NCBI RefSeq assembly: GCF_025403405.1
Contig: NZ_JANEZT010000009.1
Span: forward strand, 1 to 40,928
Direction of reading: 5' to 3'
Length of the DNA stretch: 40,928 nt
Source: Frankia tisae
GTDB lineage: Bacteria; Actinomycetota; Actinomycetes; Frankiales; Frankiaceae
How positions within the stretch are numbered: position 1 is the first letter of the stretch; each line of letters begins with the position of its first letter. This document shows positions 10,754-38,935 of the stretch, piece after piece. The notes beneath the pieces were generated by a model that was not told the DNA's origin, ran no database searches, and saw nothing but the letters and a program-made list of their open reading frames with translations. Both the position numbers and the translations under genes were made by a program.

Positions 10754-11344
10754 TCAGGGCTTGTAGCCGACCGCGCCGTAGATGCTCACCTGCGCGTCGG
10801 TCAGTTCCGACAGCGGGATGGCGTTTACCCGCGAGGCCGGGTCCGTCGCGCTCGCGCCGTCGCCGACCGGGGTCGTCTCGACCGGGGTCGTCTCGACCGG
10901 GGTCGTCTCGGCCGGGTCCGCGAGTTCGGGCCGCCGGCGGTGGACGACCTGCAGGCCGGGCTCGACGAGGTCCAGGCCTTCGAAGAACCGCTCGACCTGG
11001 GCGTGGGTGCGCAGGTGCATGGGGACGCCGCTGGCCAGGTAGGCCCGCTCGACCTCGCGCATCGCCGGATCCAGGTCGGCGGTCAGGTGGGTCAGCGAGA
11101 CGTAGCTGCCCGAGGGGAGCAGGTCGACGAGGCGACGCATGATCCCGTACGGGTCGTCGCCGCCCGGGATGAAGTGGAAGATCGCGATGAGTGACAGCGC
11201 GATCGGCCTGGTCAGGTCGAGGGTCTCGGGCAGCTCGGGGGCGGTGAGGATGCGCCGGGTGTCGCGCAGGTCCGCGTCGATGTAGGCGGTGCGTCCCTGC
11301 GGGGTGCTGGCGAGCAGGGCGCGGGCGTGCGCGAGCACGATCGG
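10754..11344 (-). pseudogene. S-adenosyl methyltransferase (PF04672 type), C-terminal half, separated from its N-terminal half
   Basis: Read on the minus strand from 11344, the frame gives PIVLAHARALLASTPQGR, DADLRDTRRIL, LDLTRPIALSLIAIFHFIP, DDPYGIMRRLVDLLPSGSYV and ends GYKP at 10754. This is the second half of the actinobacterial SAM-methyltransferase family; its missing first half, ending DNDPLVLA, lies at 17965-18441 on the same strand. The frame remains open to 11620, but everything before VPIVL is translated from inserted DNA (MCNQGVV) and has no family similarity. The glycine-rich SAM-binding motif is absent here, so this half cannot work alone. Three 15-bp repeats (10862-10906) add ETTPV repeats near the C-terminus. 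Confidence 0.85.
10862..10906 (-). repeat. Three perfect 15-bp tandem repeats
   Basis: The plus-strand unit GACCGGGGTCGTCTC occurs at 10862, 10877 and 10892, followed by a partial copy. On the coding strand it encodes ETTPV repeats in the methyltransferase tail. The length keeps the frame. Confidence 0.9.
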
Positions 11345-11368
11345 TACCACCCCTTGGTTGCACATGCC
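11336..11368 (+). repeat. Island left-end/attachment-like motif, copy A
   Basis: This 33-bp sequence contains CACGATCGGTACCACCCC then TTGGTTGCACATGCC. It sits exactly at the left junction with the methyltransferase gene. It matches copy B at 28 of 33 and copy C at 29 of 33 positions. Confidence 0.85.
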
Positions 11369-11571
11369 ACTCCGATGCCGATCCACGTATCGCAGGCATA
11401 CCAGCGCCCCGAGGCGCGGGCCGGTAGCGCCGCTGCTGTCCAGGGATTCAGCGGTGCAATGCTCCAACGGCGTGGGGCGGATGGGTGGCCGTCGCTGGTG
11501 CGGTGGCCTTTCGCTGCTGGGGGTGCGCTGGCCGTGGGTGTTGTTCGCGGGTGGTGTGGGGTGCTGATCGT

Positions 11572-13552
11572 ATGGCCGGTGGGGACGGCGGGGCGCAGCG
11601 CTTCTTCGTGTCGTACACAAGTATTGACGTCAAGTGGGCGGTGTGGGTCGCTTGGACATTGGAAGCCGCCGGTCATGAGGCGCTGATTCAGGCGTGGGAC
11701 TTCGGCCCGGGGTCGAATTTTGTCGACGAGATGCACCGGGCTTTGTCCGACGACCGGCGGATCGTGGTTGTCTTGTCGGCTGCGTATTTGACGTCGGCGT
11801 TCGCGACGACGGAGTGGCAGGCCGCGTGGGCGGCCGACCCGGCTGGCACAAAGCGTCTTCTGCTCGTCGCGCGGGTAGAGGACTGCGAGCGGCCGGGGCT
11901 GTTGCGCCCGGTCGTGTCGGTGGACCTGTTCGGTGTCGACCTGGATACGGCGCGGCGACGGCTGTTGGACGCGATCACGCCGCGCCGCCGAAAGCCCGGG
12001 GTAGAGCCTGCTTTCCCGCGATAGCGGGACCGGGCGCGAGAGCGCCGTCACCCTCACGGCACGATCGGGCGCTGTCCGTTCCCGTCGCCCGGTCGGCGTA
12101 TCTGGAGCAGGTGCGGCAGATCGCACCGCCACGCCTGCTTGGCAGGGAGGCGGAACTCGCCGGGCTGGCCGCGTTCTGCGCCGCCCCGGACGATGCGACG
12201 GGCAGCCGGTATGCGTGGTGGCGGGCGGCGGCGTGGACGGGGAAGTCCGCGTTGATGTCCCGCTTCGTGCTCGACCCTCCGCCGGGGGTGCGGGTGGTGT
12301 CGTTCTTCATCACCGCCCGATATGCGGGTAACAGCGACCGGGCCGCGTTCGTCGAGATCGTCACCGAGCAACTCGCTGAACTCCTCGGCGAGTCGGTTCC
12401 CCCCGTTTCAGGACGAGGGCCGCCGGGAGCGGCTGTGGTTCCAGTGGTTCGCGGACGCCGCCGCGTACTGCGAAGCCCGTGGGCAGTGGTTGGTGCTGGT
12501 CGTGGACGGACTGGACGAGGACCGGGGGGTGACCGGACCCGGGGCGCGCAGCATCGCCGGGCTGCTACCCGCCAACCCGCCGCACGGTGCGCGGGTGGTG
12601 GTCGCGGGCCGCCCGGACCCGCCGATCCCCGCAGATGTTCCCCCCGGCCATCCGCTGCGCGACCCGGTGATCATCCAGGTGCTGGACCGGTCCGAGCGCG
12701 CTGCCGCGATCAGGGCGGACATGCAGGCTGATCTGCTCCGGCTGTTGACCGGTCGCACGCAGGAACGGGAGCTGCTGGGTCTGGTGACCGCGGCGGGCGG
12801 TGGTCTGTCCGGCCGTGACCTCGAAGAGCTCTCGACCGATCACGACGTCACCGAATGGCACATCGAGCACCTGCTGTCCACCGTCGCCGGCCGCAGCTTC
12901 GCCAGCCGCGCCTCGCACTGGAACCCGACCGACGGACCGCGGGTGTACCTGCTCGGCCATGAGGAACTCCAACAGGACGCCATCCGCGCCTATGGGTCCA
13001 GGAGACTCGCCGCCTACCGGGACCGGCTCCACGCCTGGGCACAGGACTACCGGCAACGACGCTGGCCCCACGGCACCCCGGAATACCTGCTACGCGGCTA
13101 TTACCGGCTCCTGCTGGCAGCCGGTGATCTAGCTCGCGCCGTCGACTGCGCCACCGACCAGGCACGCCACGACCGGATGCTCGACCTGACCGGATGCTCG
13201 ACCTGACCGGCGGCGACACCGCGGCCTGCGCCGAGCAGCTCGCCCGTGGCATCACCCACCCGTACTTTCAGGCCCCGCGTTGGAGGCGGTGGTCGAGGCT
13301 CTGGTCCAGGCTGGGGCAAACGACCACGCTGAGCAGCTCGCCCGCACCATCACCGACCCGGACTCCCAGGCTCGGGCGTTGGTGGCGGTGGCTCTCGCTC
13401 AAGCCGACAGCTCTACGGTGGCTAACCGCCTTCTCGGCGCTGCGTTAAGCGTCGGCGACTGGGGCCGTCTGCCGCTCTGCGTAGTCGCAGACATGAGTTC
13501 AGACGCGATATGGGCGATTGCTGATGCGATTGCCAGCGATTGGGAAGGATAA
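11572..13552 (+). pseudogene. TIR-domain / STAND-like NTPase / helical-repeat protein, multiply frameshifted
   Basis: ATG 11572 opens a TIR domain (FFVSYTSIDVKWAVWVAWTL, WDFGPGSNFVDEMHRAL, VVLSAAYLTSAFATTEWQAA with the likely catalytic Glu), stopping at 12024. The NTPase part continues in another frame: RQIAPPRLLGREAELAGL, then AAAWTGKSALMSRF as Walker A. A second shift occurs at the C6 tract 12399-12404, and LVLVVDGLDED (Walker B-like) follows in a third frame. A 17-bp tandem duplication (13171-13204) breaks the frame again, and a further 1-bp loss near 13280 precedes AEQLARTITDPDSQARALVAVALAQA, one unit of the C-terminal repeat array. Intact relatives are single long proteins, some tied to NAD-consuming antiphage defence. 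This copy is almost certainly dead, although the TIR domain alone could still be made. Confidence 0.82.
13171..13204 (+). repeat. 17-bp perfect tandem duplication causing a frameshift
   Basis: GACCGGATGCTCGACCT at 13171-13187 is repeated exactly at 13188-13204. Because 17 is not a multiple of three, it moves translation from HDRMLDLTG into a stop at 13204-13206. Removing one copy restores the reading frame into GGDTAACAEQLARG. Confidence 0.95.
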
Positions 13553-13855
13553 TCGCTCTAGCCGCGTCCGCTTGATGGCCGGGCGCATAGTCACTGGAGC
13601 CGCGTCACACGACGGCGCAACGGCAGCGCATGCACGCAGCCGCCTTCGAGAGAGCGCAGTCCTGCCAACCGTTCGGGGCGTCGCGACCAGCAGGTTTGTC
13701 GGGTCACGCTAGATCATCTGTGTGCGCTTGGGGCTTGTTCGGAGTAACGCTACACGCGAAGGTTCCGCGGCGCGGCGGCTGGTACGTTCGCCCGCGACGC
13801 CTGGCGTGCGCAACCGGGCGAGCGATGGCCGCCAGGCGGAGGTGTGCGGGGCAAT

Positions 13856-13888
13856 CACGATCGGTACCACCCCTCGGCTACACACCCC
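13856..13888 (+). repeat. Island left-end/attachment-like motif, copy B
   Basis: It shares CACGATCGGTACCACCCCT with copy A, then CGGCTACACACCCC. It begins 36 bp after the inverted right-end relative at 13803-13820 and marks the start of the toxin-antitoxin module. Confidence 0.85.
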
Positions 13889-13917
13889 CGACTTGCGCGT
13901 CCACCGGCCACCCCGAT

Positions 13918-13936
13918 GTTGTACGTTTGTTGTACG
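13918..13936 (+). promoter_or_regulatory. Paired GTTGTACG repeats, likely antitoxin operator
   Basis: GTTGTACG occurs at 13918-13925 and again at 13929-13936, 11 bp apart (one helical turn), ending 8 bp before the antitoxin ATG. Ribbon-helix-helix antitoxins usually bind such spaced repeats to repress their own operon. Confidence 0.6.
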
Positions 13937-13944
13937 GTGACCTC

Positions 13945-14214
13945 ATGAGTGTCGGATTCCGCCCCACCGAAGAGGACCTCCGGATCGTTGAGGCCAACCG
14001 CCGTCAGGACGAGAAGACCAGCGACGTCATCCGGCGCGCCCTGCGACTGCTTGACCGGGAGGCGTGGGAGGTGCGTGCCCGCGAGGATATGTACCGGCTG
14101 CGGAACGAGGACCTGTCCGCCGAGCCCGATGCATGGGAATACGACACCAACGGCAACATCGTGATCACGGGTACGAACCTCGCGGTACCAGTCAGGCCGC
14201 AGGACCAACCGTGA
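13945..14214 (+). CDS. Ribbon-helix-helix antitoxin of a MazEF-like pair
   Basis: The 89-aa protein begins [20 protein letters not shown]. The N-terminal part (residues 1-45) fits a CopG/RHH DNA-binding fold, with [15 protein letters not shown] as the second helix that gives operator contact and dimerisation. The acidic C-terminal half ([18 protein letters not shown]) is the expected flexible toxin-neutralising tail. ATG 13945 was chosen over longer upstream starts because it lies just after the paired GTTGTACG repeats and removes a non-homologous Arg-rich extension. The stop overlaps the toxin's GTG by 4 bp. It lies in the island and may help keep the module from being lost. Confidence 0.85.
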
Positions 14215-14534
14215 TTCGTGGGGCGGTGTACCCGGTGGACCTTGGCGACGCCAAGCGCGGGCATGAGCAGCGGGGGCGTCGGCTCGGTCTCGTCATGAGT
14301 ATTGAGCAGAACGCATGGTCCACGGTCACGATCGTTCCCACGTCGACCGGCGCGCAGGCATCCGCCTTCAGGCCAGAGTTGATCATTGCGGGACGGTCGA
14401 CCAGGATCCTGATCGACCAGATCCGGACCATCGACAGCTCCTATGTCACGGGTGAACTCGTGGACTACCTCTCCCGCGACGACATGGCGCAGGTTGAGCA
14501 CACCCTTTCGCGCTATCTCGGCCTGCTTCGCTGA
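14211..14534 (+). CDS. MazF/PemK-family endoribonuclease toxin
   Basis: The 107-aa product starts at GTG 14211 ([17 protein letters not shown]), overlapping the antitoxin TGA. MazF landmarks: [10 protein letters not shown] (strand 1 with the catalytic-site Arg), [29 protein letters not shown] with the Thr-Ser after strand 3, [14 protein letters not shown] (the conserved xDQIRxxD block) and [14 protein letters not shown] at the end. Length is typical. Such toxins cut mRNA at short motifs when the antitoxin is degraded. The gene appears intact, unlike the neighbouring TIR gene. Confidence 0.92.
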
Positions 14535-14714
14535 CGCATCGCCCGGCGCTCCCCGTACATCAGCCTCCCCTCACGACTGGACACCCCCGGGCATCTTGTG
14601 GAAGGCCCCCCACCAGCAGCCTCTGCCTGGCGGACGGGACTCTGTGGGACATCTTCTCGATATTGTGAGAACGGCTGCCCCATCGACCCGATTTCGAAAA
14701 GGAGACGAAGATCG

Positions 14715-15338
14715 GTGGCAGGCGTCAGGCACGTGCTGTTCGACGCGGACGGAGTCCTTCAGGAGATCCCTGGAGGTTGGTACGCGGCGATGGAGCCGTA
14801 CCTGGGCGAGCGTTCGAGGGAGTTCCTCCACCGAACCTGGAAGGACGAGCTCCCGATGCTCGCGGGACGCGGTGACTACATGCCGGTGCTCGCGGCGACC
14901 CTGGCCGAGTTCTCTGTGTCGACACCGGTCGAAGATGTGTACCGAGACGTGTGGCACCGGATCGACGTCATGGACGAATCTCTAGCCCTGGTCCGGGCTT
15001 TCCGGCTCAGCGGCTACGGCGTCCATCTCGGCACGAATCAGGAACGGCGCCGCGCCTCCTACATGCGCTCGGCGCTTGGCTACGACCGCCTGTTCGACGT
15101 CAGCTGCTATTCCTGCGATCTCGGCATCGCCAAGCCTGCCCCTGCCTTTTTCGTCGAGGCTGCCCGCCGCATCGGGGTGGACTCGGCCAGTATCCTGTTC
15201 ATCGACGACAACGAGAAAAACATCGCAGGCGCCCGTATCGCTGGTCTCGCTGCGGAGCAGTGGAACATCACCCAGGGCCACGACACCCTGCTCCCCCTGC
15301 TAGCGCGACATGAGGTCGTCCCAGACCACCCGGCCTGA
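14715..15338 (+). CDS. HAD-superfamily hydrolase (phosphoglycolate phosphatase-like)
   Basis: GTG 14715 follows an AAAGGAG ribosome site by 11 bp and gives 207 aa beginning VAGVRHVLFDADGV. All four HAD motifs are present: DADGV (nucleophile Asp and acid Asp), GTNQ (motif II Thr), KPAPAFFVEAA (motif III Lys) and FIDDNEKNIAGAR (motif IV acidic pair). The cap is a small helical C1-type insertion at about residues 15-75. The enzyme probably removes phosphate from a small metabolite; the substrate is unknown. A longer frame to 14598 is rejected because it precedes the ribosome site and lacks similarity. It may belong to the toxin-antitoxin module, 180 bp downstream of mazF. Confidence 0.87.
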   Translation: MAGVRHVLFDADGVLQEIPGGWYAAMEPYLGERSREFLHRTWKDELPMLAGRGDYMPVLAATLAEFSVSTPVEDVYRDVWHRIDVMDESLALVRAFRLSGYGVHLGTNQERRRASYMRSALGYDRLFDVSCYSCDLGIAKPAPAFFVEAARRIGVDSASILFIDDNEKNIAGARIAGLAAEQWNITQGHDTLLPLLARHEVVPDHPA

Positions 15339-15644
15339 ACGCTCGCGGCGGGACTCCACCAGACGTCGGGCCGCCGGGACCGTGTCACCGGACAGTCCCT
15401 GGGCCGCTGCCGGCCGAGCCCCGCGGCATGTGCAGCCCGGGGACGGACGGACCCCAGACCGGCCAGATTGTCAAAAGGCACAGGTCAGAAGCCTAAAGAC
15501 GGGCAAGGACGGTCGGTACCACCCCTGGGTTGCGCATGCCTACTCTTGAGGCTCCCGTGGCGACGCCAGGCCGTTGGACAGCTGACGTCACCGTGGCACA
15601 GCCAGTGATTTGCGCGATCTACCGGGAGGGAAGACATTCGGGAC
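15339..15644. other. Gene-free junction between island modules 2 and 3
   Basis: No gene is supported. It contains the right-end relative GGCATGTGCAGCCCGGGG (15425-15442) and left-end motif copy C (15508-15540). The stretch 15412-15510 resembles the island's right border 17908-18008 over about 100 bp, including GGT-AGA-GCCT-AA spaced identically. Confidence 0.6.
15508..15540 (+). repeat. Island left-end/attachment-like motif, copy C
   Basis: GACGGTCGGTACCACCCCTG followed by GGTTGCGCATGCC matches copy A at 29 of 33 positions. It marks the start of the acetyltransferase module. Confidence 0.85.
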
Positions 15645-16781
15645 ATGCATCCGGTGGTCGACGTCGTGCTGGAGCCCGGTCTGCGCTACATGGAGACGAT
15701 CGAGTCGGGTGCGGGTGACCGGTCCGTGCGCTACTGCCGGCTCGTGGCAGACGAGGACACGCCCGTGGGCGAGCTGGAGGATTCCTTCCGGTGGCGTTTC
15801 GGTGCGATGGCGGTCGACGCCGAGGGTATCGGCGGGGTGGAGGTGCAACCGTCCTTCCGTCGGCGTGGCCACATGGGCCGGCTTCTCCGCCAGACGCTGG
15901 AGCGCATGTCACGCCGGGTGACCGTCGCGGCGGTCTCCGACGGTATCCAGGGCGTGTACGAGAAGTTCGGCTTCGCCACGTCCGTTGCCGAGGGCCACTT
16001 GGACCTTCGCGTTCGCGACGTCGAACGCGCCGCTGCCGCCGCTGCGCCGGCCACCGCGCGGGTCCGGCCTGGCTCGACCGAGGACCTGCCGGCGATGGTG
16101 GACCTTTACAACTCGACGCACGCCCACCGGCCGTGGACCCACGAACGCCCCGCGGACTGGAACCGTCTGGTAACCCGGACGACCTGGCGGCCAGGCTCGG
16201 AGATCCTCGTCGCGGAGGCCGAGGGGATGCTCGCGGGATATGCGATCGTGGCGGGCCGGTCGTTCGGCGACGGCTACTTCGGGCTGACTGTCCAGGAGAT
16301 GGCGGCCAGCGACGCGGACGTCGCCCTCTGTCTGCTCGCCGACGTAGCCGCGATGGCCTGGGAGCTGCGTGTCAGCGAGTTTCGGGTGCGGGAGCCGTCC
16401 GATGGCGTCGTGGGGCGGCTCGCGCGGCACCTGGGCTGCGCGTACCAGCAGGAGTTCCCGCCGACCGGCGGGATGATGGCCGCGATCCTGAACCGGCCGG
16501 GGCTGCTGGCAGCCCTTGAGTCGGAACTTCGGCGCCGGAACCGCGGCGCCGCCGTCGGCGCCGCCGTCGACGTCGCGATGGACGAGCTGGCCCGCGGGGA
16601 GCTCATCCCCGGCAATGGGCTTCTGGTCCGCCTGCTCCTCGGATACTCCTCGGCCGCTGACGCGTCGACGCTCGCGGCGGTCGTCCCGGAACACCATCGG
16701 CGAACATGCTCGGCGTGGTTTCCGGGTGGCGGCACGGCGGCGCTGCCGGTGCCCTACGCGCACGCGTTGGACCGGTACTGA
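15645..16781 (+). CDS. Eis-like GNAT N-acetyltransferase
   Basis: The 378-aa protein begins MHPVVDVVLEPGLRYMETIE after a GGGAGGG ribosome site. It has the two-GNAT-plus-C-terminal-domain layout of Eis-type acetyltransferases. GNAT 1 covers about residues 15-125, with the acetyl-CoA loop VQPSFRRRGHMGRLLRQTL (Q-x3-R-R-x-G-x-M/I), then YEKFGFATS. GNAT 2 covers about 135-275 (AMVDLYNSTHA; GYAIVAGRSFG; VREPSD). The C-terminal 90 residues resemble the SCP2-like end, although the usual terminal carboxylate region is short (YAHALDRY). Eis proteins acetylate amines such as aminoglycosides; whether this one gives resistance is unknown. Confidence 0.87.
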   Translation: MHPVVDVVLEPGLRYMETIESGAGDRSVRYCRLVADEDTPVGELEDSFRWRFGAMAVDAEGIGGVEVQPSFRRRGHMGRLLRQTLERMSRRVTVAAVSDGIQGVYEKFGFATSVAEGHLDLRVRDVERAAAAAAPATARVRPGSTEDLPAMVDLYNSTHAHRPWTHERPADWNRLVTRTTWRPGSEILVAEAEGMLAGYAIVAGRSFGDGYFGLTVQEMAASDADVALCLLADVAAMAWELRVSEFRVREPSDGVVGRLARHLGCAYQQEFPPTGGMMAAILNRPGLLAALESELRRRNRGAAVGAAVDVAMDELARGELIPGNGLLVRLLLGYSSAADASTLAAVVPEHHRRTCSAWFPGGGTAALPVPYAHALDRY

Positions 16782-17080
16782 ATCACCATCGGCACCGACG
16801 CGTTTGGCGAACTACGACGACGGTCGACCCACGGCCGGTGGCCAACAAGCTCGTTGCCAGGCACGGCGACTGGCCATGATCCAGCGATCTCTACAGTAGG
16901 CGTCGGGTACAGCTGAGCAACCGACCGTGTATATGAGCAGTACGTGAGCAGCGGTCAGATTTATCCGAGCAGTCGCCGCTCTCGGTGGCGTTCTGTCACA
17001 TGCTCTCGGGCGTCTACGAGCCACGGGCCGTTCTCGGTGAACATGCCCTCCGCATCGACCCGGCCCGGCGCAGAGGGCGC
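16782..17080. other. Intergenic stretch with GAGCAG repeats
   Basis: No gene is supported. Three GAGCAG copies lie in 16934-16973. The last is part of TTATCCGAGCAGTCG (16961-16975), which recurs exactly at 17779-17793 on the other side of the GNAT gene. Confidence 0.5.
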
Positions 17081-17533
17081 TCAGCCTGGCTTTTCCATGT
17101 CGACGAACTCCACGGCCCCGTAACCGTCGAACGTCTCGGCATGCCGGCCGGTCTCGGTGAAACCGAGGCGCTGGTACAGGCGGATGGCGCGTTCGTTGAA
17201 GGCGGCGACGTAGAGCACGACCCGGCGCTGCCCGTAGAAGGGGCGGGCGAACTCCAACCCGGCCAGCACGAACTGCCCGCCGAGCCCTCGGCCGGTGAGA
17301 TCGGGCCGCAGGCCGAACCCGTAGAACAGCGCGTCGCCGTGCAACTCGAAGAAGTAGAAACCCATGAGCGCACCGTCGTCGTCGCGCACAGCGAAGAAAC
17401 GCTCGGGGTTCTTCACGGGTAGGCCGTCGTCGTCGTAGAAGTCGTAGGGCGGGTCGTACCGCCAGGCGGTGCGCTCGCCGAACATGGCATCGTCCGCCGG
17501 TTCGATCCTCACTGCTTCACCCGTCCCGAACAC
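17081..17533 (-). CDS. GNAT family N-acetyltransferase
   Basis: The 150-aa single-domain protein begins MFGTGEAVRIEPADDAMFGE and ends FVDMEKPG. GNAT features: PERFFAVRDDDGALMGFYFFE (strands 2-4), YGFGLRPDLTGRGLGGQFVLAGLEFAR (acetyl-CoA pyrophosphate loop, R/G-R-G-L-G) at about residues 75-100, and AFNERAIRLYQRLGFTETGRH, the typical N-x-x-A-x-x-L/Y-x-x-x-G-F block. It resembles RimI/ribosomal-protein-type acetyltransferases, but no substrate can be named. It is on the opposite strand to the rest of the island and is bracketed by a 15-bp direct repeat (16961 and 17779). Confidence 0.88.
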   Translation of the reverse strand: MFGTGEAVRIEPADDAMFGERTAWRYDPPYDFYDDDGLPVKNPERFFAVRDDDGALMGFYFFELHGDALFYGFGLRPDLTGRGLGGQFVLAGLEFARPFYGQRRVVLYVAAFNERAIRLYQRLGFTETGRHAETFDGYGAVEFVDMEKPG

Positions 17534-17964
17534 CGATCCCGTCCCATCCGTTCAACTATCCCCCTGCGCGCTGGGCTGGGGGCACCTCCATCAAAATGCT
17601 GGCTTTACCACGTCCGCTGAGCACGAGGGGCAGACCGTCCAGCGACAACCCTCGTCCTCACCCCATTACACCGCCTCACGCGCCACGCTCACGCAAGCAC
17701 TGGTAGCAGGCCGACCAGCGCGCCGGCCGTGCGTCCCTACGGCTGGCGGGACGGGCTGTTGCTCCGAGAGTGCGCCGCCTTATCCGAGCAGTCGGGATGC
17801 TGACCAGTAGGTTTGCGTGATCGTATTGGGCCGTCTTCGACTTCTTCGGGGCTGGTTCGGGGACGGCGTCGTCAACAGGGTCTGGCCGCGCGGTGGTCGG
17901 CATACTGCACCCGAGCCGTGCGGCGTGTGCAACGCGGGTGCGGACCAAGGGCTGGCCCGACTAC
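17534..17964. other. Gene-free right part of the island
   Basis: No coherent protein is seen; the minus-strand frame at 17676-17948 is Arg/Ala-rich without family marks. The region holds the second TTATCCGAGCAGTCG (17779-17793) and the right-end relative GGCGTGTGCAACGCGGGT (17922-17939). Confidence 0.5.
17922..17946 (-). repeat. Island right-end motif (inverted relative of the left end)
   Basis: GGCGTGTGCAACGCGGGTGC then GGACC resembles the reverse complement of left-end copy A (GGCATGTGCAACCAAGGGG...GGTACC), matching 11 of the first 12 bases. Equivalent sequences end modules 1 (13803) and 2 (15425). Confidence 0.65.
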
Positions 17965-18441
17965 CTAATAAAGATGCTGGTGAGACGCCTGAACCTGCGC
18001 CAGCACGAGCGGATCGTTGTCGGTGTAGACGACCCGCGCGTCGGGGGCGACGTCCTGGGCGACCTCGTGCAGGTTCGGGGAGGTCGGGATGCCCGTGCCG
18101 ATGTCCAGGAACTGGCGTATCCCGAGCTCGGCGGCCAGATAGCGGGTCGTCCGGGTCATGAACAGGCGGTTCTGCCGGACCACGATCCGGGAGCTCGGAA
18201 ACACGCCGAGCATCTGTTCCGCGGTCTTGCGGTCGGCGGGAAAGTTGTCCTTGCCGCCGAGAAAGTAGTCGTACATGCGAGCCGGGTGAGGCACGTCGAC
18301 CTTCAGGTCCTGGCCTGCGCCGTCCGGTGCCTGTCCGGCCCGCGTGCCACCGGATTCCTCGGGGCTCTCGCCGACGGTGCTCAGTACGCTCTCGGTTCCC
18401 GTCACCGTGTCACGCCCTTCGTGTTGGCGGAATGTCACCAA
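17965..18441 (-). pseudogene. S-adenosyl methyltransferase (PF04672 type), N-terminal half
   Basis: From ATG 18441 (MVTFRQHEGRDTVTG) the frame reads HPARMYDYFLGGKDNFPADR, the hallmark of this actinobacterial family. It then reads RQFLDIGTGIPTSPNLHEVA (SAM-binding glycine motif) and VVYTDNDPLVLA, where family similarity stops at about 17998. A short inserted tail, VQASHQHLY, leads to the stop at 17965. The complementary C-terminal half is at 10754-11344. The protein keeps the SAM-binding loop but lacks the strands and helices after motif II, so activity is unlikely. GTG 18408 (VTGTESVL) is another possible start. The family is common and of unknown substrate in Frankia and Streptomyces. Confidence 0.87.
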
Positions 18442-18527
18442 ACCACCATAGTGGGTGACTTCGCGCCTGCGCTAAGAGACGGGATGTATCCGGCCGGTGT
18501 CCTGCCCCCGCGGGATAAGTCCGGGGT

Positions 18528-19637
18528 CTAGGGCGTCTCGGCGAGCAGGCCTCGGCGGCGCAGCAGGGGCAGAACGCCTTCGGCGAACCAGTACGCCTCC
18601 TCCAGGTGCGGATGGCCGGAGAGGATGACGTGCTCGATGCCGAGGTCGTGGTATTCCGCGATGCGGTCCGCGACCTCGGCGTGGCTGCCGACGAGCGCGG
18701 TGCCGGCGCCGCCGCGGACGAGGCCGAAGCCCGCCCAGAGATTCGGGGAGATCTCCAGGGCGTCGCTGCTGCCGCGGTGCAGGGCGGCCATCCGCTGCTG
18801 TCCCACGGACTCGGTCTGGGCGAAACGCCGCTGCGCCGCGGCAATCGCCGCCGGATCGAGCTGGGCGAGCAGTTCGTCGGCGACCGCCCAGGCGGCGCCG
18901 GCGGTGTCCCGGGTGATGACGTGCAGCCGGATGCCGAATTTCAGCTCGCGGTCCTGTTCTTTGGCCAGCGGCCGCATCCGGTCGAGCCGCTCGGCGACGG
19001 CGGCCGGCGGCTCACCCCACAGCAGGTAGACGTCGGACTGTCTGGCGGCGACGAGTTCGGCCGCGGGGGAGGCACCACCGAAGAAGATCGGCGGCGTCGG
19101 ATCGGGACGCTCCCGGACGGTGGCACCCCGCACCGCGTAGTGCTCGCCGTCGAAGGTGAACGGCTGGCCCGTCCACGCCCCCCGGACGATCTGCAGGAAC
19201 TCCTCGGTACGCCGGTACCGGGCGTCGTGGTTCAACCAGTCGCCGAAGCGCTGCTGCTCGTCGGCGTCGCCGCCGGTGACCACGTTGAGTAGCAGCCGTC
19301 CGCCGGAGATGTGCTGGTAAGTCGCCGCCATCTGCGCGGCGAGGGTGGGGCTGAGGAAGCCGGGCCGCAATGCCACCAGGAAACGCAGCCGGGTGGTCTC
19401 GCGCAGCAGGGCCGCGGTGGTGAGCCAGGCGTCCTCGCACCAGGTTCCGGTCGGGGTGAGCACGGCCTCGTACCCGAGGTGCTCGGCCGCGCCGGCGATC
19501 TGGGCGAGGTATTCGATGCTCGGCGGCCGCTGCGCGGCGGGCTGCAGGTGGGGGGCTTCCTTGGCGCTCACCGCGGCGGCGTCGAGGTTGCGGCTGTCTC
19601 CCGAGGTGGGCAGGAACCAGTGTGCATGCACGCTCAC
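18528..19637 (-). CDS. ssuD: FMNH2-dependent alkanesulfonate monooxygenase SsuD
   Basis: The 369-aa product starts MSVHAHWFLPTSGDSRN and follows SsuD throughout: GYEAVLTPTGTWCEDAWL holds the active-site Cys region, RFLVALRPGFLSPTLAAQMAAT, LLNVVTGGDADEQQRFGDWL, then RLHVITRDTAGAAW, and the highly conserved TESVGQQRMAALH, LEISPNLWAGFGLVRGGAGTALVG and VILSGHPHLEEAYWF. SsuD cleaves alkanesulfonates to aldehyde and sulfite using reduced FMN and oxygen in the cytoplasm. The partner reductase SsuE and the SsuABC importer are not in this window. It is preceded by a cysteine leader peptide (19793-19891), so it is probably induced when cysteine/sulfate is short. Confidence 0.94.
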   Translation of the reverse strand: MSVHAHWFLPTSGDSRNLDAAAVSAKEAPHLQPAAQRPPSIEYLAQIAGAAEHLGYEAVLTPTGTWCEDAWLTTAALLRETTRLRFLVALRPGFLSPTLAAQMAATYQHISGGRLLLNVVTGGDADEQQRFGDWLNHDARYRRTEEFLQIVRGAWTGQPFTFDGEHYAVRGATVRERPDPTPPIFFGGASPAAELVAARQSDVYLLWGEPPAAVAERLDRMRPLAKEQDRELKFGIRLHVITRDTAGAAWAVADELLAQLDPAAIAAAQRRFAQTESVGQQRMAALHRGSSDALEISPNLWAGFGLVRGGAGTALVGSHAEVADRIAEYHDLGIEHVILSGHPHLEEAYWFAEGVLPLLRRRGLLAETP

Positions 19638-37363: not shown

Positions 37364-38935
37364 ATGACCTCCGCGCAACATCTGCCGTCCGCCCGCCGCA
37401 CGAGACGCGGCGCCGTCCTCGGGGCCCTGGTGGCCCTCGCGGCCCTCGTCCTCAGCGCCTGCGGCTCCGGCTCCGGCTCCGGCACCGCGGCCGCCGGCGG
37501 CGGAGGCGGTGGCGGCAAATCGACCACTCTCAAATGGGCCTCCTCCTTCTTCCCGACGCACTGGGATCCGGTGGTCGGGGGTAGCGGTGCCCAGTTCCGC
37601 ATCCTCGCCCTGCCCTACGCGGCACTGACGAAGACGGACGCGAAGGGCAACGCCGTCCCGGATCTGGCACAGAGCTGGGTCTACAACGGGACCGGCGACG
37701 AGATCACGTTCCATCTGCGGCCGAACCTGACGTTCAGCGACGGCACTCCGGTCAACGCCGCGGCGGTCAAGAACGCCATCGACCGGGCCAAGACGCAGAA
37801 GAACTCGGCGCTGTTCGGTGACCTCACCTCGATCAAGTCGGTCACGACCGGCGGCGACCTGGACGTGGTCGTCCACCTCACCCAGGTCGATCACCAGATC
37901 CCGCTGCTGCTCGGTGAGCGCGTGCTGCAGATCGCCAGTCCCAAGGCCGCGGCGGACCCGGCGAAGCTCGACCAGAACCCGGTCGGCGCCGGACCGTTCA
38001 TCGTCACGCAGCTGATTCCGGGCACGAAGGTCGTGCTCAAGAAGAACCCGAACTACTGGGACGCCAAGAACATCCACATCGACAACGTGCAGCTGGTCTC
38101 GGCACCCGACGTGTCGACGGTCGTCTCCGGTCTGCAGACGGGCGTCTACAACTTCGCCGACCTCGCCCCGAGCCAGGCGAAGGCCGCCAAGGCGGCCGGT
38201 CTCGACGTCTTCGTGCAGCCGGGCTTCAACGCCTCGAACATCAGCCTGAACATCAACAAGGCGCCGTTCGACAACCCCAAGGTCGTCGACGCGGTCCGCT
38301 ACGCCACCAACCGGCAGGAGTTCGTCGACAAGCTCACCTTCGGGTACGGCAAGCCGACCAACCAGCCCTTCCCGCCGGGTTACGTCGCCTACGACGAGAA
38401 GTCGGCGAACCTGTACCCGTACGACCCCGCGAAGGCGAAGCAACTGCTCGAGCAGGCCGGCTTCAAGTCGGGCCAGATCAAGCTGGACCTGGTCATCCCG
38501 AAGGAGGACCCGGCGGCGGAGATCGTGCAGTCGCAGCTCGCGGCGATCGGGATCACCGTCACCATCAAGATCAACAAGAACTGGGCGACGCCCTTCTTCG
38601 CCAAGGATCTGACGTTCTCGCTGTACGGCACGACCGGTCGTGACTCGGCCGTCCAGACGCTCACGGCGCACTTCGGCCCGGACGGTCCGCTGAACCTCAG
38701 CTCGCCGTACGAGCCGGAAGGCTTCGAGGCCGCGATCGCCAAGGTCCGCCAGACGCCGCTGGACGCACCGGACTACCCGCAGGTCCTGCAGGCGGCCACC
38801 CGCGCGGGCCTGCAGAGCAAGGCGCTCGTCTTCGACTACTCCAGCCCGAACCTGTTCGCCAAGAGCAAGGCGATCTCCGCGTTGCCCGCCAACCCGGCCC
38901 ACATCGACTGGACCGGTGTGACCATCGGCGACTGA
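37364..38935 (+). CDS. ABC transporter substrate-binding lipoprotein (family 5)
   Basis: The 523-aa lipoprotein has a basic start (SARRTRRGAVLGALVALAAL) and a lipobox LSAC with the lipidated Cys at residue 33, followed by a Gly/Ser linker. An AGAAAGAAG ribosome site precedes ATG 37364. Family-5 marks: ITFHLRPNLTFSDGTPVNAA, VGAGPFIVTQ, NPNYWDAKNIHIDNVQL, and YPYDPAKAKQLLEQAGF. Early TLKWASSFFPTHWDPVVGG resembles binding proteins that sit beside NtaA-type monooxygenases. It should capture the substrate of the linked monooxygenase outside the cell and hand it to the two permeases downstream. Confidence 0.93.
   Translation: MTSAQHLPSARRTRRGAVLGALVALAALVLSACGSGSGSGTAAAGGGGGGGKSTTLKWASSFFPTHWDPVVGGSGAQFRILALPYAALTKTDAKGNAVPDLAQSWVYNGTGDEITFHLRPNLTFSDGTPVNAAAVKNAIDRAKTQKNSALFGDLTSIKSVTTGGDLDVVVHLTQVDHQIPLLLGERVLQIASPKAAADPAKLDQNPVGAGPFIVTQLIPGTKVVLKKNPNYWDAKNIHIDNVQLVSAPDVSTVVSGLQTGVYNFADLAPSQAKAAKAAGLDVFVQPGFNASNISLNINKAPFDNPKVVDAVRYATNRQEFVDKLTFGYGKPTNQPFPPGYVAYDEKSANLYPYDPAKAKQLLEQAGFKSGQIKLDLVIPKEDPAAEIVQSQLAAIGITVTIKINKNWATPFFAKDLTFSLYGTTGRDSAVQTLTAHFGPDGPLNLSSPYEPEGFEAAIAKVRQTPLDAPDYPQVLQAATRAGLQSKALVFDYSSPNLFAKSKAISALPANPAHIDWTGVTIGD

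Follow-up and report, generated by a model that had tools for sequence, protein, structure and literature searches.

The subject of this analysis is a group of gene cassettes found in a 40,928-nucleotide stretch of the Frankia tisae genome (contig NZ_JANEZT010000009.1 of assembly GCF_025403405.1; hereafter the window). They form an array of integron-like, non-autonomous cassettes inserted site-specifically into one of many genes of the Methyltransf_19 family, and it is close to certain that positions 11343–18010 comprise three such cassettes lying within a single split gene of this family (Table 1). The orthologous methyltransferase gene is uninterrupted at the insertion site in five relatives (L058–L062; L numbers designate loci in the genomes compared), and it is because these orthologues run through the site that the borders of the array can be fixed. 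In the alignments of the flanks, matches on the left stop at window position 11344 and those on the right begin at 17996, their overlap representing the shared core; comparison with the empty sites places the right border at the GG 89 bp past 17922. The target site reads GAGCACGATC-GG-(A/G)TCGTTGTC, and every cassette begins at the GG. Among the eight empty sites compared, the sequence is (GAG or CAG)CACGATC-GG-(A/G)TCGTTGTC, while in the window the left border is GAGCACGATC-GG-TACC and the right border CAGCACGAGC-GG-ATCG. An earlier sequence-only reading of this DNA, which had proposed an island of mobile modules here, missed that the island occupies one exact site inside a methyltransferase gene.

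Table 1. Features of the cassette array and of the gene that it interrupts (window coordinates).
Feature	Position	Strand	Basis and content
Methyltransf_19 C-terminal half (split target gene)	10754..11344	-	Pfam PF04672, E 2.8e-50, profile positions 106-256
Cassette 1	11343..13862	+	ends by motif and empty sites; TIR protein 11485-12024, NTPase-like open reading frame 12322-13206
Left end, cassette 1	11343..11368	+	core GG + TACCACCCCTTGGTTGCACATGCC; motif search, empty sites
Right end, cassette 1, degenerate and short	13803..13864	+	core GG 13863-13864; junction model E 2.7e-4
Cassette 2	13863..15514	+	antitoxin-position open reading frame 13927-14214 (no Pfam match), PemK toxin 14211-14534, HAD hydrolase 14715-15338
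Left end, cassette 2	13863..13888	+	motif search
Right end, cassette 2	15425..15516	+	inverted arm 15425-15448, ~65 bp, core GG 15515-15516
Cassette 3	15515..18010	+	two GNAT acetyltransferases by Pfam: 15645-16781 (+), 17081-17533 (-)
Left end, cassette 3	15515..15540	+	motif search
Right end, cassette 3	17922..18012	+	inverted arm 17922-17945, tail, target-like segment, core GG 18011-18012
Methyltransf_19 N-terminal half (split target gene; start approximate)	18011..18405	-	Pfam PF04672, E 4.8e-50, profile positions 5-113

The TIR protein of cassette 1 matches TIR_2 in Pfam (E 8e-31), and the NTPase-like open reading frame (ORF) beside it, for which Pfam gives no match, is recognized by the PADLOC model STAND_TPR (E 2.6e-62). 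The two are in separate frames in the window (11485–13206); since their counterpart in L036 is a single ORF of 870 aa, the window copy looks broken. Cassette 3 has a counterpart with 97.4% identity in the array of that other genome. Cassette 2 is probably the product of a fusion of two cassettes, because a solitary toxin–antitoxin cassette of ~870–890 bp, devoid of the HAD gene, occurs elsewhere (L034 and L039); toxin–antitoxin plus HAD, taken by the sequence-only reading as one module, would thus be two. In L045, a toxin–antitoxin cassette is joined to a HAD remnant and a glyoxalase cassette, and the HAD joins in the two places point to fusion by deletion. As had been proposed, no recombinase is encoded within the modules, at least among the seven window-cassette proteins scanned with Pfam, two of which have no match.

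Cassettes start with GG-TACCACCCC..GGTTGCACATG and finish with GGC(A/G)TGTGCAAC.CGGGTACGGACC, followed by ~60 bp and the GG of the next junction. When the junctions are aligned, the left end (LE) has the consensus CGGTACCACCCCNNGGTTGCACATG, and the right end (RE), of ~90 bp, consists of GGC(A/G)TGTGCAACNCGGGTACGGACC, a spacer and GCTGGTGAGAAGCCTGAACCTACGCCAACACGATCGG. A search of the window for the left motif with up to three mismatches returned only 11342, 13862 and 15514, all of them exact (0.03 expected). Genome-wide, allowing no more than one mismatch, five copies were found, of which two lie on a different contig; only these five were used, since at three mismatches the motif gave no more matches than its reversed control (7 vs 7).

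The inverted counterpart of this motif had been described at the end of each module, as three strings fitting GGC-TG-GCA-C--GGG at 13803, 15425 and 17922. The strings are there; the pattern is exact at 15425 and 17922 and misses 13803, where one base is lacking before GGG, its third match in the window being at 14260, within the PemK gene. Shuffled sequences gave a mean of 0.03 matches, and none of 100 reached three. A longer inverted motif, GGCRTGTGCAACNCGGGTRCGGAC, was found with up to three mismatches only at 15425 and 17922, with 0 expected. A right-end hidden Markov model, itself built partly from the 13803 copy, did not recover that copy at E<0.1, and this right end does not fold (z +2.1). 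Judged by these searches, the right ends at 15425 and 17922 are solid and 13803 is a degenerate copy. The motif marks the inner part of the right end, the true ends being 60–90 bp further on than the sequence-only reading had placed them. Its inverted relation to the left-end motif stands, since 19 of 20 comparisons between four right-end arms and five left ends, which are related sequences compared without a shuffle control, gave the best match when the cores were in register.

The left end also extends the reading frame that it adjoins. In the window (11344–11368) and in 17 other copies, it places an initiation codon and some eight residues (MCNxGVVP) in frame ahead of the truncated C-terminal half of the methyltransferase. 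The start position is ATG or GTG in 17 of the 18 and CTG in L114.

The terminus of the right end resembles the target itself: in 14 right ends, the final 12 bp agree with the best of eight target genes at 8–11 of 12 positions. Because the right end finishes like the left half of the target, insertion of a cassette creates, to its right, a junction that resembles the target. A shared segment of this kind is reminiscent of attP/attB cores, and a phage-type tyrosine integrase might act in trans on the ~12-bp sequence common to right ends and target. The position of the exchange makes this unlikely. The G two bases before the right-border GG belongs to the cassette, as the same cassette has G in L036 and the targets have T; the exchange therefore took place within CGG. 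In both informative islands, the window and L043, the mismatches two bases from the GG stay on their own side, which confines the exchange to the ~3 bp of (C)GG, the resolution that comparison of sequences affords. In addition, no consistent tyrosine integrase partner appeared among the matches listed.

Complete islands, with the methyltransferase gene on both sides and at the same position, number eight (window, L035, L039, L042, L043, L049, L114 and L118). The last five hold a single cassette each, with one left end and one right end, and thus provide the solitary modules with both ends that the sequence-only reading had called for; its view of non-autonomous, discrete cassettes with inverted motifs near their ends is thereby supported. 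The C-terminal half of the methyltransferase abuts a left end in 12 of 15 array regions, the exceptions being L045, L046 and L047. In L036, four complete cassettes are followed by the beginning of a fifth, where the contig stops, and Frankia QA3 carries two arrays. Recurrences of individual cassettes, in differing genes and orders, have ~90–97% identity; for example, a glyoxalase cassette of 1,034–1,038 bp is found in L035, L036, L039 and L043 at 90–96% identity, in differing gene copies and positions. Outside the window, Pfam identifies cassette-borne glyoxalase, PIN, globin, aminoglycoside adenylyltransferase-like, protein kinase and short-chain dehydrogenase (with MerR) genes. The protein kinase (L034:2500-4035) matches PADLOC PD-T4-6 models; as kinases are common, a role in defence is only possible.

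Such a distribution might also arise by passive shuffling, that is, homologous recombination between the 120-bp junction repeats and between methyltransferase paralogues, without any dedicated enzyme being active at present. The junctions are indeed repeats, the Methyltransf_19 family is large (from at least 5 to at least 36 matches per genome, lower bounds from 40 scored candidates), and fused and decayed cassettes do occur, as in L045 and cassette 2 of the window. We nevertheless consider this explanation improbable, since it explains neither how intact genes were first entered precisely at one GG nor the single-cassette islands and the conservation of both ends across four genera.

The left motif is present in 22 copies in 8 of 13 genomes of the same genus, that of the window included; its reversed control gave none. 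A junction model built from sequence alone, 11 of the junctions having been used to construct it, yielded 87 matches (29 full junctions, 24 right ends only and 34 left ends only) in 23 of 35 Frankiaceae genomes belonging to four of seven genera. At the order level, the search covers the same 35 genomes. A class-level scan of 393 Actinomycetes genomes, made with stricter filters than the family scan, gave a match in 24, namely 23 Frankiaceae and 1 of 358 others, and the latter match is weak (E 1.8e-4), about chance level. The ten stretches retrieved by an exact-pattern scan of GTDB all belong to Frankia, Parafrankia or Pseudofrankia, and no exact left end was found in viral contigs.

Integrons, which rely on a tyrosine recombinase, are the textbook example of cassette capture. 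The Frankia cassettes share with them tandem arrays of small and varied cassettes (GNAT, glyoxalase, toxin–antitoxin, PIN, globin), repeats between cassettes that form a shared recombination site (29 full junctions, and the multi-cassette array of L036), and the absence of an enzyme from the cassettes scanned. It could therefore be asked whether this is a true integron, in which an IntI-type tyrosine recombinase acts on attC-like folded single strands of the inverted arms. The arms of adjacent cassettes can form an outer stem at 15425–15540 (z −3.5; 1 of 200 shuffles was as good). However, the strength of the stem is inconsistent, the three further junctions that were folded having z of −0.8, −2.1 and +2.1, and a double change is seen in only 2 of 22 consensus pairs; the attC-like single-strand fold was rejected on account of this inconsistency between junctions. 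The attC box has the consensus GTTRRRY with the crossover in GTT, whereas the Frankia crossover falls within (C)GG and GGTTGCAC is not GTTRRRY. Unlike integrons, moreover, the Frankia cassettes use a family of coding genes as target and carry a target-like segment in the right end. No intI was seen beside the window array, though IntI was not searched for specifically, and tyrosine recombinases, among the matches listed and as judged by eye, show no consistent proximity to arrays (in two cases one lies within ~4–10 kb of an array). A true integron is thus quite improbable: the cassette system works like an integron, but not through the att site by which integrons are defined.

A different type of enzyme is suggested by serine recombinase genes lying close to the same target. 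Two leads were available at the outset: a serine recombinase adjoining a methyltransferase gene that is interrupted at the same position (L119) and another about 8–10 kb from a left end (L120). The L119 recombinase (484 aa) was rejected as a direct candidate, since it uses the same methyltransferase site with different ends; the 12.2-kb element concerned (L119:4532-16693), which encodes serine recombinase P0004, splits another Methyltransf_19 gene and has inverted ends of its own. Large serine recombinases (LSRs) of a second type, P0001, contain Resolvase and Recombinase domains, with a zinc-ribbon below cut-off. At 70% identity or more to P0001, they occur at eight loci in 6 of the 393 Actinomycetes genomes; all six are Frankiaceae, and all have junction-model matches as well. 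At four of the loci (L121/L126, L122, L150 and L153), the right end of the LSR element, TGC(A/G)TCCAT(A/G)GG..(C/G)GAC-GG (a single base differs in L153), is joined to the N-terminal half of a methyltransferase at the very same GG. A fifth, L152, has the element end and the first target bases, with a weak match to the N-terminal half (E 7e-4). When inverted, the four LSR-element right ends agree with LE at 11–15 of 22 positions, the shuffle means being 5.3–6.1, and the best match was exactly in register about the GG in 20 of 20 comparisons. The right-end arm of the cassettes has this symmetry too, with its core inverted. Cassette-type left ends are also present at a distance from LSR genes, 8.4 kb away in L120 and ~30 kb away, with an intact methyltransferase gene between, in G009:C11.

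We infer from these data that an LSR is the cassette-moving enzyme, and we give a probability of roughly 60% to the proposal that the array consists of non-autonomous, integron-like cassettes mobilized in trans by an LSR. The exchange within (C)GG fits the 2-bp crossover predicted for a serine recombinase. The enzyme would be supplied by larger Frankiaceae elements whose own insertions fall at the identical GG of the methyltransferase gene. In this scheme, LE would correspond to the P' half-site of the LSR attP, the arm of RE to a displaced P half-site and the terminus of RE to the target-like half; the P-like arm is displaced in the cassettes, and the register of the putative inverted half-sites emerges from LSR right ends and LE, not from the two ends of one element. 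Cassettes might circularize and then re-insert at intact methyltransferase sites or at existing junctions. Insertion of such a circle would yield the borders observed together with a target-like site on the right, where another cassette could enter, and cassettes may occasionally fuse by deletion. The trans-acting enzyme suggested by the sequence-only reading is therefore the natural interpretation, for which a candidate can now be named, albeit one for which no close relative was found in the genome of the window.

A number of observations weigh against this proposal. The best match to the LSR in the draft genome that contains the window has 39% identity, and searches of 17 of the 23 genomes with cassettes likewise revealed no close LSR. 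The presence of cassettes in all six LSR genomes is not significant (p ~0.06, calculated by hand). At the L151 LSR locus the end motif is changed and the target absent, no right end was found at L120, and in L105 remnants of an LSR lie within an array, immediately next to a right end of the cassette type. The left end and the LSR of G009:C11 may not form one element, given the intact gene between them. Right ends of LSR elements and of cassettes differ by ~60 bp, and the register comparisons are not independent, the sequences being mutually related. For the 28 bp that lie outside the core of the right end, the likeness to the target is only suggestive, exceeding that of shuffles (below 0.05) in just 7 of 14 copies. 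Finally, a circle joined as B-GG-P' would present the recombinase with an attL-type substrate, an unusual geometry; serine integrases are not known to insert such substrates into attB unaided.

A 2-bp core would also fit IS110, and the cassettes might be moved by a transposase, of the IS110 type or another, that has a guide RNA of its own or uses terminal inverted repeats; the inverted arms would be in keeping with this, as would a right end that is conserved and apparently non-coding. We see only a slim chance of it: a gene of this kind was not seen in association with the arrays, although IS110 proteins were not searched for, and Rfam gave no match in the window at gathering thresholds. An unrelated insertion-sequence transposase appears, from ORFs judged by eye, to be carried by the large insert of L054, which was discarded as a source of the enzyme.

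Returning to the LSR, one parallel to a serine recombinase serving several elements at one site is the staphylococcal cassette chromosome (SCC, SCCmec), in which Ccr serine recombinases act at rlmH and recombinase-less elements are carried in tandem. The likeness lies in the serine recombinase, the single gene site and the tandem elements lacking a recombinase. The Frankia cassettes differ by the use of many paralogous Methyltransf_19 targets in place of rlmH, a size of ~0.7–3.4 kb, insertion in mid-gene and a different recombinase; ccr genes were not sought. Tandem accretion is likewise known for genomic islands, cis-mobilizable elements (CIMEs) and satellites, where integrase-less elements use the enzyme of another element and stack at one site. 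In the Frankia arrays, by contrast, a half-site in the right end of each cassette seems to restore the site of stacking.

In the available excerpts of a survey of Frankia actinomycete integrative and conjugative elements (AICEs), integrative elements are described, one of which has a serine recombinase (Faln2929), and a figure legend includes an MT_19 methyltransferase gene among the genes drawn (PMC3218068). The targets given in these excerpts are tRNA genes or, for Faln2929, an endonuclease gene, and they describe neither cassette arrays nor a methyltransferase target, unlike what is reported here (PMC3218068). The array system is likewise not described in the excerpts of the Frankia integrative-element and insertion-sequence surveys (PMC3218068, PMC2770080), nor in the titles and abstract beginnings of the open-access literature among the matches listed.

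It is tempting, if still doubtful, to go one step further and regard the system as a serine-recombinase counterpart of the integron, in which the target half-site in RE rebuilds the insertion site so that arrays grow, the methyltransferase family offers dispersed landing sites and the recombinase comes from a helper element. A recombinase on a helper element using the same site is found at four of the eight LSR loci, and weakly at a fifth; none is close in the genome of the window. If true, the combination of what is probably a serine recombinase with a target-rebuilding half-site would represent a second evolutionary route to cassette arrays, and would explain the shuffling of defence-like, toxin–antitoxin and metabolic genes in Frankia and its relatives. 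The system gives exact sites at which these ideas can be tested.

Some further features were noted in the course of this work. A CRISPR-like array (L121:1900-3124) with at least 19 copies of a ~30-nt repeat at 63–70-bp spacing lies ~4 kb from the methyltransferase N-terminal half that flanks an LSR element, on the side away from the element. In L122, a 1440-aa restriction-modification protein of the Eco57I/MmeI type (14638–18960) is encoded ~3 kb beyond the N-terminal half, thus outside the LSR element. As to the window itself, ARAGORN called a tRNA with a four-base anticodon at 38218–38314, which is probably a false positive, and the C-terminal half of the methyltransferase contains a 23-nt repeat in three copies with 15-bp spacing (10864–10916).

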